In this document: positions 4,848-22,692 of the stretch, one piece after another
Layout of the letters: each line of letters opens with the position of its first letter
Numbering within the stretch: the stretch's first letter is position 1
DNA from: an uncultured Gammaproteobacteria bacterium
GTDB lineage: Bacteria; Pseudomonadota; Gammaproteobacteria; Steroidobacterales; UBA11654
Direction of reading: 5' to 3'
Assembly: GCA_902595845.1 (NCBI GenBank)
Contig: CACJRN010000002.1
Location: 1-64,000 of the forward strand
DNA length: 64,000 nt
Position numbers and translations under genes: made by a program
The notes under the pieces: model-generated
Told to the model about the DNA's origin: nothing
The model's database searches: none
What the model saw: the letters and a program-made list of their open reading frames with translations, nothing else

Positions 4848-5228
4848 ATGGAATCACTGTTTAATGATATAGGTCTCATTATTGATGGAAAAATTCTTCC
4901 AGGTTTTGTTTTTGGTATTGTCCATGTAAGCCTTGTATTGATAGGGTTTTATACTGGATGGAGTATTAACCGTTTACTAAAACTAACATCCAAAGGATAC
5001 ATCTCAGGAATCATTGGTGCTTCATTGGCTCATGTTATTGCTGATCTAGTTGCAGCATTGGTTGATCCTTCTATGAGAGCAAGAACCCTTGGCATCGTCT
5101 TAGGGGGTCTTTTACCTTTATTGTTGATTCCTTTTCTGGAGAAATATATCACCAAGAGCGAGAGACATATCATGGTTGGCGATCATGAAGACATTGAGAA
5201 AGATCTTCGTGACAAACACAATCATTGA
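4848..5228 (+). CDS. Hypothetical membrane protein
   Basis: 126-aa ORF with about three hydrophobic segments, directly after the DUF885 gene. Confidence 0.7.
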   Translation: MESLFNDIGLIIDGKILPGFVFGIVHVSLVLIGFYTGWSINRLLKLTSKGYISGIIGASLAHVIADLVAALVDPSMRARTLGIVLGGLLPLLLIPFLEKYITKSERHIMVGDHEDIEKDLRDKHNH

Positions 5229-12300: not shown

Positions 12301-15300
12301 GATACCAAAAAGCATCGCATTGATAAGGCTATTTGAAGATTCTGCGACATTGCTCTGTGATTGGATATCTGATGCATAGGGTGTTGCATAAGCAAGGTCA
12401 TTGACATTTACAGTGAAGTCTTTTGAGACACTAAGGCCACCTTGGTCAATGACTTTGATTGTAACGTTTAACGAAGATTTGATTTCATAATCTGCATATA
12501 CATTATCCTTCAATTTTAGTGTTCCATCAGATGTGACCTCGAACATATCAGCATCTTCTCCTGATATCTCATAGGTATATGAATCATTGATATTTGGATC
12601 AGTAACATTAACTGAGCCGATCTCAATACCACGCTGACTCTCATCAAAATTAATATTTGATAAATCAAGATCTGTTGGGGCTGAGTTTACCTCAATAAGA
12701 ACATCCTCTGAAACATTCAAACCCGATGCATCAGTCACTGAAATTGTGAGATTGTAGCTGGCTTTATTAGAGAAATTTGTAGTGACGCTATCTTTGAATT
12801 TAAGTTTTCCTTCATTATCAATTTCAAAATACTCAGCATCAGTTCCACTGATTTCATAAGTATAAGTATCAAATTGATCAAGATTACCTATGATTACTGA
12901 TCCAACAGAAGGACCAGTATCATTATCCTTTACCCAGGCACTGGACAGATTAAAAGCAGGCTCCTCATTCACATCAACAACTTGAATGGTGATATTTTTT
13001 GAAAAAGAATTGCCACCCGATGTTATTCCAGATAACTGAATTACAAAATCATTATTTTTCTCATAATCGAGGGATGCATTGCTTTTTAGTTTCAGTTCTC
13101 CATCTTCAGAGATAGTGAAAAGATTGGAATAAGCACCTTGTATTTGAATACTTGAAAAATCTACTGACTCATCATCATCTAAATTCAAAAATGAAATGCT
13201 TCCAATGGTTGCACCCAATGAGTTTTCCTCGACTGTGTTCTGGTCCAGTTTGAGAACTGGTTCAGGCTGTGATTGATCAATATCATCTTGCCCAGACCAA
13301 ATAATCAGATCTTGAATGGTTCCATAACCATTTGTAAAGGCAAACTCATCCAATCCGTCATTATCATAATCACCCATTGAGATTATCTGGAGACCGCTCT
13401 CATTTCCCTTAATTTCAATACTTGAATAGATGGTATCTGAGAGCTCTCCAAGCCAATTACTTTGCCCAAAGATTATCTGCCCAACTCCATACTCGCTTCC
13501 AGAGTAGTTTGAGTCCCAATTTGCATATGGTGCGACCACAAGTATGTCATCGAATCCATCTCCGTTGACATCACCAATCCCTTTAAATTCATAGAAAGAT
13601 CCTATTGACGTCCCTGATAAATATTCACCATCTAATGAGGATTGAATGCTTGAATCGATCAATTTGACATCATTGATACCATCTCCATTCAAATCATAAT
13701 CAGCTGACCAACTTGACTGACCCCAAACAATGAAAAAGTTATCGTCATAATCTCTTATGCCTAGATCATCAAACCCATCACCATTGATATCGCCCAAGTT
13801 CTGAAGTGAGCCTTGACGATAGCCCATATATGATCCCGAGTTATTTCCATTGATTACGACGGCTTCTTGAGGGTCACCAAAATTTTGACCCAAGTAAATG
13901 GTTACAATTCCTTCGTTTCCATCATTAAGTCCAGCCTCATTTGAAGATACAGCTAAATCATCAATTCCATCTCCATTAAAATCTCCAACAGCGACTGAGT
14001 CGCCCATTTCAGATTCAGAGTTTGGAGAGAATACACTACTGAGCTGAATAGAAACCCCGTAGTCATCTGAATCGTATAAGTCTCCACCATCATATGTATT
14101 TATCTTTAAATCAGACTGACCATATATAATATGAAAAGCACCTTCGTCTGAATCCAACAATGGAGCATTTCCATCTAGTGGAGCCCCTATGAGAATGTCG
14201 TCGAATCCATCATTATTAAAATCACCGATGGCAATGTCTGCTCCAAATTCTGCACTATCTGAACCATTAGGAGCTAAGAAAGTTGTCCATTGAACCTCTT
14301 CATTTACGAGTGATTGCAGTGATGCGCCATGAACGATCTCAACCATACCATCTGATAGATCCGTCGATCCATCACCATCATAATCATAATCTAATGAGTC
14401 ATTACCGAAACCCAAGATAATGTCTGCAAAACCATCTCCATTGATGTCACCAAGATCCATATCCGTTGGAATATACCCAAAGGTATAATTCCAATATGTA
14501 ACCAAGTATGCTGTTTGATTGACGTTCCCATCAATATCTTGACCTCCAGGAATGATAACGAGGTCAAGCCATGTATTATCGACATTTATAAGTAAAACTG
14601 TATCTGGGGATCCATCTCCAGTGACATCTTTTCCACCTGCAGAAGCAACAATTTCTCCATAGTCATTGTTAATAGTGACCAATCCTTCGCTAGACATTTC
14701 TCTTCCGAGCTCAAGACTTCCGTCATCAGATGTGTCCCCAAAATCAAGAACAATATAGACAGGATTGCTCGAGAGATTTCCAGAGTAAGTGATATCAACA
14801 CTGGTTGACTCATCTTCAAGTGAAAAAATCAATGGCCTGACTGAACTAGAAACATCTTCATCAGGACCATTTACCCCATAAGAAAGTGCATCTGTACCAG
14901 CATGATAATGCGCTGTGCTATTCTCAAAATCAATTGCAGAACCTGATTTTAGATAGACTGCCCCAGTTTCGGCATCAAATCTAAAGAATGAGGATACATC
15001 AAATCCCGAGACAGATTTGACAACTAAATTATAAGAGCCATTTTCATCATCTTTTAAATCAATAGAAAAGAGATAAATCTCCTCATCAGAATCTTTTTCT
15101 GGAACTGTGATATGCAGAGTGGTTGCATTCGATGTATACCAGTTATCCTCATCATTTTTTAGCCAAATAGAGTCAACAGAAAGTTGCCCATTTCTTCCAA
15201 AAATATATGTTGCAGCTTCAATGGGCTCATCAATGTCATTTACAGCAATATTGACAGTTGATTTTAGAGATTCACCATCACTATTGGTTGCTGTAATGAG

Positions 15301-19697: not shown

Positions 19698-20483
19698 TTA
19701 ATTTAAGATCTTATTGAAGTAATTAGATGTTGCTTCATCCGCAATTCTTTGAAGAAATTGTCTATCTTGCTCATTGATTGCACCAAAGTAATCGTATTCT
19801 ATACCAATGGGGGATTTATCATAGATGCTTGCAAAAACAGTGCATGCTGCAAGATATGTCCCTAGAAGATTTGGGTGAGTTCCATCTGGTTCATGTAATT
19901 TGATATTCGGATTTTCTCGATATGCTAGATCAAACGCCAAGCCAACAGGAATAACTATAACCTGATTTTCATTGCCCACTTTTGTATATGTATCAGATAT
20001 TAGCCCTATTTGATTCTTCATGGTTCGTTTGTGTGGTTCGACATAAGCGTGGGTCATGTAAAGCGCTGCTTCGGATTCATTTTTCTTTATCGCCTCTATA
20101 TGTTTTTTGGCAAAATATGAAAATTCTTTTCTACTGACTTCACTTAGTGGTTCAGAACTCCCGCCTTGAAGAATAACCAATTCAAATTTATCAATTGAGC
20201 TAATTGCTTTTGGCTGAATTAGTCTCTCAACATCATGATGTTTGAGTCTGGATCCGCCAATTGTTGATGATTTTACAGAAGCTCCACCATCGAAATCACT
20301 TTTATATTCCTCAACAATTCTCTTAAAGTGATTATGAAGGCTGTCATTGTAATAAAGGTAACTATTACCAATAAATAAGATTGTTTCAGGCTCATCAATT
20401 CTTTTTATATTTGGATTTTCTTCTCCAAGAACAGCTTGTATTGAAAATAGAAGTATTAATGAGATTATAAATTTGAAATTCAT
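19698..20483 (-). CDS. SGNH hydrolase-like/DUF4886-like secreted protein
   Basis: Signal peptide; ETILFIGNSYLYYND and LHEPDGTHPNLLGTYLAA blocks. Confidence 0.75.
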   Translation of the reverse strand: MNFKFIISLILLFSIQAVLGEENPNIKRIDEPETILFIGNSYLYYNDSLHNHFKRIVEEYKSDFDGGASVKSSTIGGSRLKHHDVERLIQPKAISSIDKFELVILQGGSSEPLSEVSRKEFSYFAKKHIEAIKKNESEAALYMTHAYVEPHKRTMKNQIGLISDTYTKVGNENQVIVIPVGLAFDLAYRENPNIKLHEPDGTHPNLLGTYLAACTVFASIYDKSPIGIEYDYFGAINEQDRQFLQRIADEATSNYFNKILN

Positions 20484-20718
20484 GATCTAATTCTCACAAC
20501 ACGAGGGACATCAGTCAAAGAAAAATTAATATTGATTTGCGGAGATTTTATAAAAATAAATATATCCAAGATTCTAATCATTCATAATTTTTTCATTTAA
20601 GAATCTTTATTAAGATATTTTATTAAGTTAATGAAAAACAGTTAAATAGATATTTGCGATCCGATCTACATCGATCATCTATATTTAACATTTAATAGTT
20701 AATTAAAAATAAATTTTC

Positions 20719-20748
20719 TTGACTGAAAAATTCATTATGAATTATATT
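20719..20748 (+). promoter_or_regulatory. Candidate sigma70 promoter for glnK-amtB (TTGACT-18-TATATT)
   Basis: -35 TTGACT at 20719-20724, -10 TATATT at 20743-20748, spacer 18 nt. Confidence 0.5.
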
Positions 20749-20755
20749 TCGACTC

Positions 20756-20963
20756 GTTAAGGAAATTTGCAGCAGGTAGCTAAACAGTTCCTAAACGTAA
20801 TTCACCAAATATAATCTTTCTCAATGCGTTCCAGCATTCAAGATCAGGTGATTTAACTAAAAAATTTACTATCCATAACATTTTTTTTGATGGAATTAAA
20901 AGAATTATGGTTATTGGGACTGACTGCAAATACCTCCCCCCTTCACAGATATAGTCCCAATAA
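20756..20963 (+). promoter_or_regulatory. Candidate structured 5' leader RNA of glnK-amtB
   Basis: GTTAAGGAA/TTCCTAAAC stem (20756-20764/20788-20796, 8 of 9 pairs); TCACC/GGTGA (20802-20806/20847-20851) enclosing AATGC/GCATT (20823-20827/20834-20838); perfect 11-bp TTATTGGGACT/AGTCCCAATAA (20911-20921/20953-20963). Confidence 0.5.
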
Positions 20964-21011
20964 TCTTGTTAAGATAATCTTATTACTTGATTAATTTTAA
21001 GAGGAAATAGA

Positions 21012-21350
21012 ATGAAATTAGTAACAGCGATAATTAAACCTTTCAAACTTGATGATGTGCATGAGCGTCTTACAAATCTTGGTGTTAAAGGGATAACAAT
21101 CACAGAGGTGAAGGGCATGGGTAGGCAGAAAGGGCATACTGAGCTTTACAGGGGCGCTGAGTATCAGGTTAATTTTCTTCCAAAAATAAAAATGGAGATC
21201 ATCGTCACTGAGGAGATGACTGAGCGGGTAATTGAAACCATAGCTGAGAATGCTTCTACAGGTAATATCGGTGATGGAAAAATATTTGTAACTGATCTAG
21301 AGGAAGTGATTCGTATTAGGACTGGAGAAACTGGTAATGATGCAATCTAA
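21012..21350 (+). CDS. glnK: Nitrogen regulatory protein P-II
   Basis: P-II sequence with [14 protein letters not shown]-loop (Tyr51) and [12 protein letters not shown]; followed by amtB. Confidence 0.97.
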
Positions 21351-22692
21351 CTATATTAATTTTAAAGAGATGAGCATGATCAAAGAGAAAAAAATTAATC
21401 AGAAGAACATTTTTAATCTATTTATAGCTTTAATTATACTTTTTAACCCTGGCTACTTGGTTGCTCAGGAACTTGATTCAGGTGATACAGCTTGGATTTT
21501 AACTTCGACGGCACTGGTACTATTCATGACTTTACCAGGCTTAGCACTTTTTTATGGCGGACTGGTCAGAGTTAAAAATATACTCTCTGTTTTAATTCAG
21601 TGCTTTGTCATTGCATGTATTGTTTCTGTTATTTGGGTTATTTTTGGCTATAGTCTGGCTTTTAAAGGGTCTGGATCATATTTTGGAGACCTCAGTTCAC
21701 TTTTCTTGAGTGGCATTGGAAGAGATAGCCTTTCTGGAAGCATTCCAGAGACACTCTTCGTGATGTTTCAGATGACATTTGCAATCATTACTCCAGCCCT
21801 GGTGATAGGTGCTTTTGTAGAGAGAATTAAGTTCTCGGCTGTTTGTTTATTTACAATCTTTTGGGTGACACTGGTTTATTTGCCTGCTTGTCACATGGTT
21901 TGGGGCGGTGGATACCTCAGTTCTTTAGGTGTGATCGATTTTGCAGGCGGACTCGTTGTTCATGTGACTTGCGGTGTTGCTGCTTTGGTATCTGCGGTAA
22001 TGATTGGACCTAGAAAAGGATTTCCAAATACCCCAATGCCTCCTCACAACAGGACTATGGTGGTAATAGGGGCTGCTATGCTCTGGGTTGGCTGGTTTGG
22101 ATTTAATGCAGGAAGTGCAGTTGCTGCAAATGGAGATGCAGGAATGGCAATGCTCGTTACACATATAAGTGCTGCTGTTGCTGCTCTTGTATGGATGTCA
22201 GTTGAATGGATTAAACAAGGTAAACCAACTGTTGTTGGAATTGCAACCGGAATGGTTGCAGGTCTGGCTACAATTACACCTGCAGCAGGAACAGTAGGGC
22301 CAGAAGGAGCATTATTAATTGGTTTGCTCGCTGGAGTTGTATGCTTTTATTCAACCCAGCTTATTAAAGCTGTTCTTAAGATTGACGACTCTTTAGATGT
22401 TTTTCCAGTCCATGGAGTAGGTGGAATGCTTGGAATAATCATGTTGAGTCTAGTAGGAAATCCAGATGGCTTTCTAGGTGCTGGCGCATCGGGAATTTCA
22501 GAATCAGGTGCATTGAGTCAACTCTATGTTCAATTAACTGGTATTGCGCTTATCTTTGTATGGACTGCAGTATTCACTTGGATCATTCTTAAATTTATAT
22601 CTATGATCACTGGCTTGAGGGTTGATGATGAAACAGAATCTCAAGGTCTTGATTTAATAAGCCATGGAGAAAGAGGTTATAACATGGAGTAA
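21337..22692 (+). CDS. amtB: Ammonium transporter
   Basis: Amt family ([44 protein letters not shown]); start may be a downstream ATG at 21370 or 21376. Confidence 0.96.

Follow-up and report, generated by a model that had tools for sequence, protein, structure and literature searches.

The 64,000-nucleotide stretch of DNA analysed here (the window) carries an ammonium-uptake operon, glnK-amtB (21012-22692, plus strand), which a 528-bp gap separates from a divergent gene (19698-20483, minus strand). The question raised by this locus is whether the gap encodes a regulatory leader RNA and, if so, of which kind. An initial annotation had proposed a long structured leader in front of glnK, and this was borne out by conservation in congeners and by folding beyond that of shuffled sequences, where the folding energy of the 281-nt leader is -58.3 kcal/mol as against -46.3 +/- 4.7 kcal/mol (z -2.56; 2 of 200 shuffles as good). 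The features of the locus are collected in Table 1.

Table 1. Features of the glnK-amtB locus, in window coordinates.
Feature	Position	Strand	Description	Evidence
Promoter	20719-20748	+	sigma70-type, TTGACT-N18-TATATT	sequence scan; conserved in five species
P1	20755-20797	+	5'-terminal hairpin, 9 bp and one mismatch, encloses the conserved core	covariance-model match, 67.5 bits
Core	20766-20787	+	22 nt, TTTGCAGCAGGTAGCTAAACAG, inner AGC/GCT helix, ARGTA loop	pattern search
P2	20802-20851	+	nested hairpin, TCACC/GGTGA around AATGC/GCATT, loop GTTCCA	paired changes in both helices
P3	20909-20965	+	hairpin of 13 bp, loop C-rich, restricted to glnK leaders	100% of cells paired, five species
P4	20966-21003	+	predicted hairpin that includes the greater part of the Shine-Dalgarno sequence, AAGAGG (20999-21004)	RNAalifold
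glnK	21012-21350	+	P-II protein	PF00543, E 7e-33
amtB	21337-22692	+	ammonium transporter	PF00909, E 2e-118; TIGR00836 above cut-off

Promoter and nitrogen-control context

The promoter suggested earlier is present at its proposed place, and only 4 of 29 columns of this region vary among the five species in which it is conserved. Promoter-like matches show no excess over the 600 bp scanned (2 as against 4.3 in shuffles). The true start of amtB may be internal to the frame given in Table 1.

RpoN (PF04552) was found in none of the 11 family genomes, and E. coli and three other controls were positive in the same search. For an NtrC-type activator (PF00158) there was no convincing candidate; the weak matches are to proteins of about 430-570 aa which are probably other AAA+ ATPases. 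With RpoN and convincing NtrC-type activators both absent, this lineage lacks the means for the usual NtrC/sigma54 control of glnK-amtB.

Glutamine riboswitches were observed elsewhere in the genus. One of 57.9 bits is located before a glutamate-dehydrogenase-type gene in G005 (L192:1501-1563; G005:C6:50737-50799), a genome without an amtB match. Two tandem sub-threshold elements resembling this riboswitch (30.5 and 23.5 bits) precede a glutamine synthetase gene in G006 (L193:1501-1558 and 1605-1662; G006:C3:4905-4962 and 5009-5066), and the pair may represent a tandem variant of RF01739 that has diverged. The same variant (30.4 bits) occurs in G009 before a TonB-dependent receptor gene, which is an unusual target (L194:1501-1558; G009:C6:8239-8296).

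A near-invariant core within the 5'-terminal hairpin

The leader had been described as starting with a helix of 8 out of 9 bp. This helix is P1, in which 9 bp are formed around one A.A mismatch (20755-20758 with 20794-20797 and 20760-20764 with 20788-20792). The pattern of the core that it encloses, TTTGCAGCARGTAGCTAAACAG, is nearly invariant: no mismatch was observed in 10 of the 11 strong copies and two mismatches in the other one, these copies being distributed over seven of the ten genomes of the genus. The R of this pattern is an A in the second leader of the same genome. Within the glnK leaders (group A, defined below), 2 of 33 columns vary in the P1 helix and core, whereas 28 of 53 vary in P2 and 44 of 61 in the P2-P3 spacer; for P1 and core against their surroundings the hypergeometric P is 8e-6, a statistic that ignores relatedness. 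The main point added to the initial annotation is that the core recurs before a second gene of the same genome, unlinked to glnK-amtB (G000:C12:1728-1749), where the chance expectation for the core in the genome is 4e-7.

Recurrence and distribution

When the leader DNA was used to search relatives, four congeners gave full-length matches of 82-84% identity, and a short match of 27 bases (96%) was found in two congeners and at another place in the own genome. R1, a covariance model built on P1, recovered the 11 strong copies in the genus at 56.8-67.5 bits, and everything else scored 19.6 bits or less. These copies fall in three settings. Group A comprises the glnK leaders of G000 (the window genome), G002, G003, G004 and G006. 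Group B consists of the TorF-glnK-amtB leader of G001, where the motif precedes a TorF-family porin gene (PF09694; TIGR02001 above cut-off) that heads the operon, and of a leader in G008 that is cut by a contig end. Group C contains the leaders of a gene for a 93-aa protein in G000, G002, G003 and G006, to which a decayed copy in G004 was added; the latter is the 19.6-bit match, so the motif appears dispensable there. The reversed-pattern control gave zero matches in the genus genomes, and one extra match to TTTGCAGCARGTAGCTAAACAG with three mismatches has no flanking stem.

The group C site of the window genome (L129; G000:C12:1724-1750) leads a protein with an N-terminus that is signal-peptide-like by sequence and with no confident family. 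Its orphan gene (L129:1856-2137) was found in only six genomes among 59 relatives, all of this genus, and the homologue in G001 (46% identity) has no motif upstream. A conserved CAACCCCUAA stretch is found in the leader of this gene just before the Shine-Dalgarno sequence. A second, diverged P-II gene is located away from amtB in G001 (L134:3151-3432, G001:C22), and a similar match occurs in G008 (L135).

The motif and amtB co-occur. In each of the six genomes in which amtB was found, its operon is preceded by the motif, and G005, G007, G009 and G010 have neither the motif nor an amtB match, where the amtB absences rest on draft genomes 77-91% complete and may be missing data. In a sample of 396 genomes of the order, the pattern with three mismatches allowed was no commoner outside the genus than the reversed-pattern control. 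The covariance model matched only the own genome in a sample of 369 genomes of the class, and the pattern with two mismatches found the own genome and one chance-like match among 399 genomes of the phylum. The motif was also not found at the glnK loci of other Gammaproteobacteria. In the order, class and phylum samples searched, strong copies of the element were seen in one genus only. Five matches to the core on viral contigs were discarded, none having complementary flanks, and a further match in the window (12764-12803, 19 bits) is at noise level.

Base pairing in P1 and P2

The sequence of the P1 stem changes with the setting. The window has AGGAA/TTCCT, group B TAGAGAA/TTCTCTA and group C GAGA/TCTC, the last being extended in G000 and G003. 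Each leader's own helix has a mean of 4.75 bp, compared with 3.99 bp for cross-group combinations and 2.64 bp for shuffled flanks (maximum of 2000 rounds 4.25). The pooled P1 alignment passed the paired-cells control (0 of 500), and pairs with two-sided changes numbered 4 as against 3.2 in shuffles, a control only partly exceeded owing to an offset of one or two bases in group C.

The nested helix TCACC/GGTGA around AATGC/GCATT of the initial annotation was recovered as P2 (20802-20806 with 20847-20851 and 20823-20827 with 20834-20838), and two-sided changes were observed in both of its helices in group A. For the whole P1-P3 structure of group A 91.9% of cells are paired, as against at most 43.7% when the structure is slid, and for a hairpin at the P2 position in group C 84.0% as against at most 52.7%, with five pairs showing two-sided changes; as the sequences are few, related and all from one genus, these figures are taken as indications and not as proofs. 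The covariation of P2 independently suggests, in two settings separately, that the element acts as RNA. Comparison of homologous leaders had been proposed as a check, and it showed a conserved leader in which base-pair changes keep the helices in congeners.

These observations bear on the possibility that a repressor or an activator recognises the core as DNA, the core then being an operator at the start of transcription and the hairpin incidental. P1 starts at about the expected +1 in every copy of all three groups and the core thus sits at the predicted start throughout; conservation in the glnK group extends to the -35/-10 region, and the two target operons resemble a small regulon. We nevertheless consider an operator unlikely, since the outer stems differ in sequence yet stay complementary, the dyad within the core is asymmetric with a GC insertion on one side, and the distance between the -10 box and the core (16-17, 20 or 13 nt depending on the group) shifts by 3-7 nt between groups. 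The covariation of P2 further downstream as RNA also argues against it.

The P1 hairpin could instead merely protect the mRNA from 5'-end-dependent decay, with no sensing involved. All copies have it at the extreme 5' end, which agrees with such a role, and outer-membrane and secreted-looking targets might need stable mRNAs. However, a stem would suffice for protection, 22 near-invariant loop letters are not required for it, and the motif is limited to two operons per genome, all of which make simple protection very unlikely. Pairing of the core with a trans-acting small RNA is highly improbable: a near-invariant stretch is common to two unlinked mRNAs and C-rich stretches further downstream could also pair, but the flanking stem is kept although small RNA targeting does not need it, and no candidate small RNA emerged from the parts of the genome examined.

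P3, P4 and the ribosome-binding site

P3 had been drawn as an 11-bp helix with a C-rich loop. The helix and its loop are present, while the length is really 13 bp with one G.U pair included (20909-20921 with 20953-20965). Three of its pairs vary among the five species, through G.U exchange only. The C-rich loop (window 20922-20952, CCTCCCCCC) changes in composition and length among species (CCACCTCCC, CCTCCCCCCC) and the stem is kept. In P4, 96.9% of cells are paired and no two-sided changes were observed. In group C, RNAalifold pairs a CCU with the AGG of the Shine-Dalgarno sequence. The inclusion of most of the Shine-Dalgarno sequence in P4 in group A and the CCU-AGG pairing in group C would fit translational control. 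In constrained folding, blocking or forcing P1 did not alter the accessibility of the Shine-Dalgarno sequence in a consistent way, and no switch was visible.

Several other arrangements were considered. Pairing of the inner loop of P2 with the first helix (GUUCCA/AAGGAA) had been suggested; this complementarity, present in the window, is not retained by the other motif-bearing leaders, and a functional pairing is therefore not supported. Pairing of the P1 loop with the C-rich loop of P3 (AGGUA/UACCU) was rejected because it is lost wherever the P1 loop is AAGUA. An intrinsic terminator, that is a G+C-rich hairpin followed by a T run, was not found in 20500-21100 and an attenuator of this kind was therefore rejected. 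A leader-peptide attenuator using a short open reading frame in P3 was also rejected since its start codon and frame vary between species: at the base of P3, the ATG (ATGGTTATTGGG) is replaced by ACG in G003 and G004, and the alignment places an extra C in G003.

Proposed function

The element is real and conserved, and apparently undescribed. It is likely to be a new cis-acting leader RNA that exerts post-initiation control over these mRNAs; its action as RNA, the level of its output and its nitrogen signal are what we infer. The element would begin at, or a few nucleotides from, the mRNA 5' end. P1 with its near-invariant internal loops would form the recognition (sensor) part and P2 a conserved second domain, whereas in the glnK leaders the output part would consist of the two hairpins close to the start codon, P3 and P4, with the output presumably exerted at the ribosome-binding site. 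The leader would most likely tune the translation or stability of the glnK-amtB mRNA. It would likewise tune TorF-glnK-amtB in one congener, probably two, and a second mRNA which encodes the small secreted-looking protein. The signal followed would probably be nitrogen status, a link that comes from glnK-amtB and not from the orphan second target.

P1 might be bound by a metabolite, a protein or a small RNA, and we lean slightly, with low confidence, towards a metabolite. It is a tentative proposal, on the doubtful side, that P1 serves as the aptamer in a riboswitch of a new class, responding to a nitrogen-status metabolite (e.g. glutamine or 2-oxoglutarate); this riboswitch would have taken over the control of ammonium uptake in a lineage without NtrC and sigma54. 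A new riboswitch class is possible, and if a metabolite is sensed, this class would be added to those known in nitrogen control and would help to explain nitrogen regulation in reduced-genome bacteria. The leader is an uncatalogued structured RNA with a sharp sequence signature and two independent targets, and its physiological hook is ammonium uptake without NtrC/RpoN in a small-genome bacterium. As the motif is only about 45 nt long, binding and reporter tests are cheap.

Comparison with known RNA and regulatory systems

The suggested Rfam scan of the leader returned no family at the gathering score and nothing relevant at E <= 10; a match to enod40 (10.9 bits) is due to chance. No description of the element was found in the open-access literature, among the titles and abstracts returned and the papers searched inside. 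As is general for riboswitches, it is a conserved structured leader element of a metabolic gene.

In other Gammaproteobacteria, NtrC/sigma54 promoters serve the same operon and presumably the same physiological need, whereas here the promoter is sigma70-like and both RpoN and convincing NtrC-type activators are absent. The E. coli ompA mRNA has a stabilising hairpin at its extreme 5' end. P1 is like hairpins of this type in position and unlike them in that it conserves loop sequence.

The initial annotation could not find the core of the glutamine riboswitch in the leader, and indeed RF01739 (35-bit cut-off) has no match in 20500-21200 up to E 10, and none in G000 at E <= 0.001. R1 in turn does not match the glutamine-riboswitch elements of the genus. 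In the glnA motif (RF01739) a P2 hairpin, then CGGAAGUA, then P3 are arranged inside P1, whereas 20755-20797 contains a single inner AGC/GCU hairpin and neither of the glnA junction strings CGGAAGUA and GAAGGAAC. The AAGUA string that the glnA RNA and the motif have in common is no more than chance would give, and in the glnK leaders AGGUA stands in its place in three of five copies. For RF01704, the leader in the window gave no match up to E 10 and L129 none up to E 5.

Weinberg et al. (PMC2864571) report glnA RNAs, sometimes as tandem copies, upstream of genes for PII, glutamine synthetase and ammonium transporters; their sister, the Downstream-peptide RNA (RF01704; glutamine-II), is found in cyanobacteria and marine sequences in front of orphan proteins of 17-100 aa. 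The motif resembles glnA as a small leader element with ammonium-transporter and PII genes among its targets. It resembles the Downstream-peptide RNA in that its second target in the window genome is a 93-aa orphan, and differs from it in that this protein has a signal-peptide-like N-terminus. Having the same two kinds of target and another sequence and architecture, the motif is analogous to the glnA and Downstream-peptide RNAs rather than a member of either.
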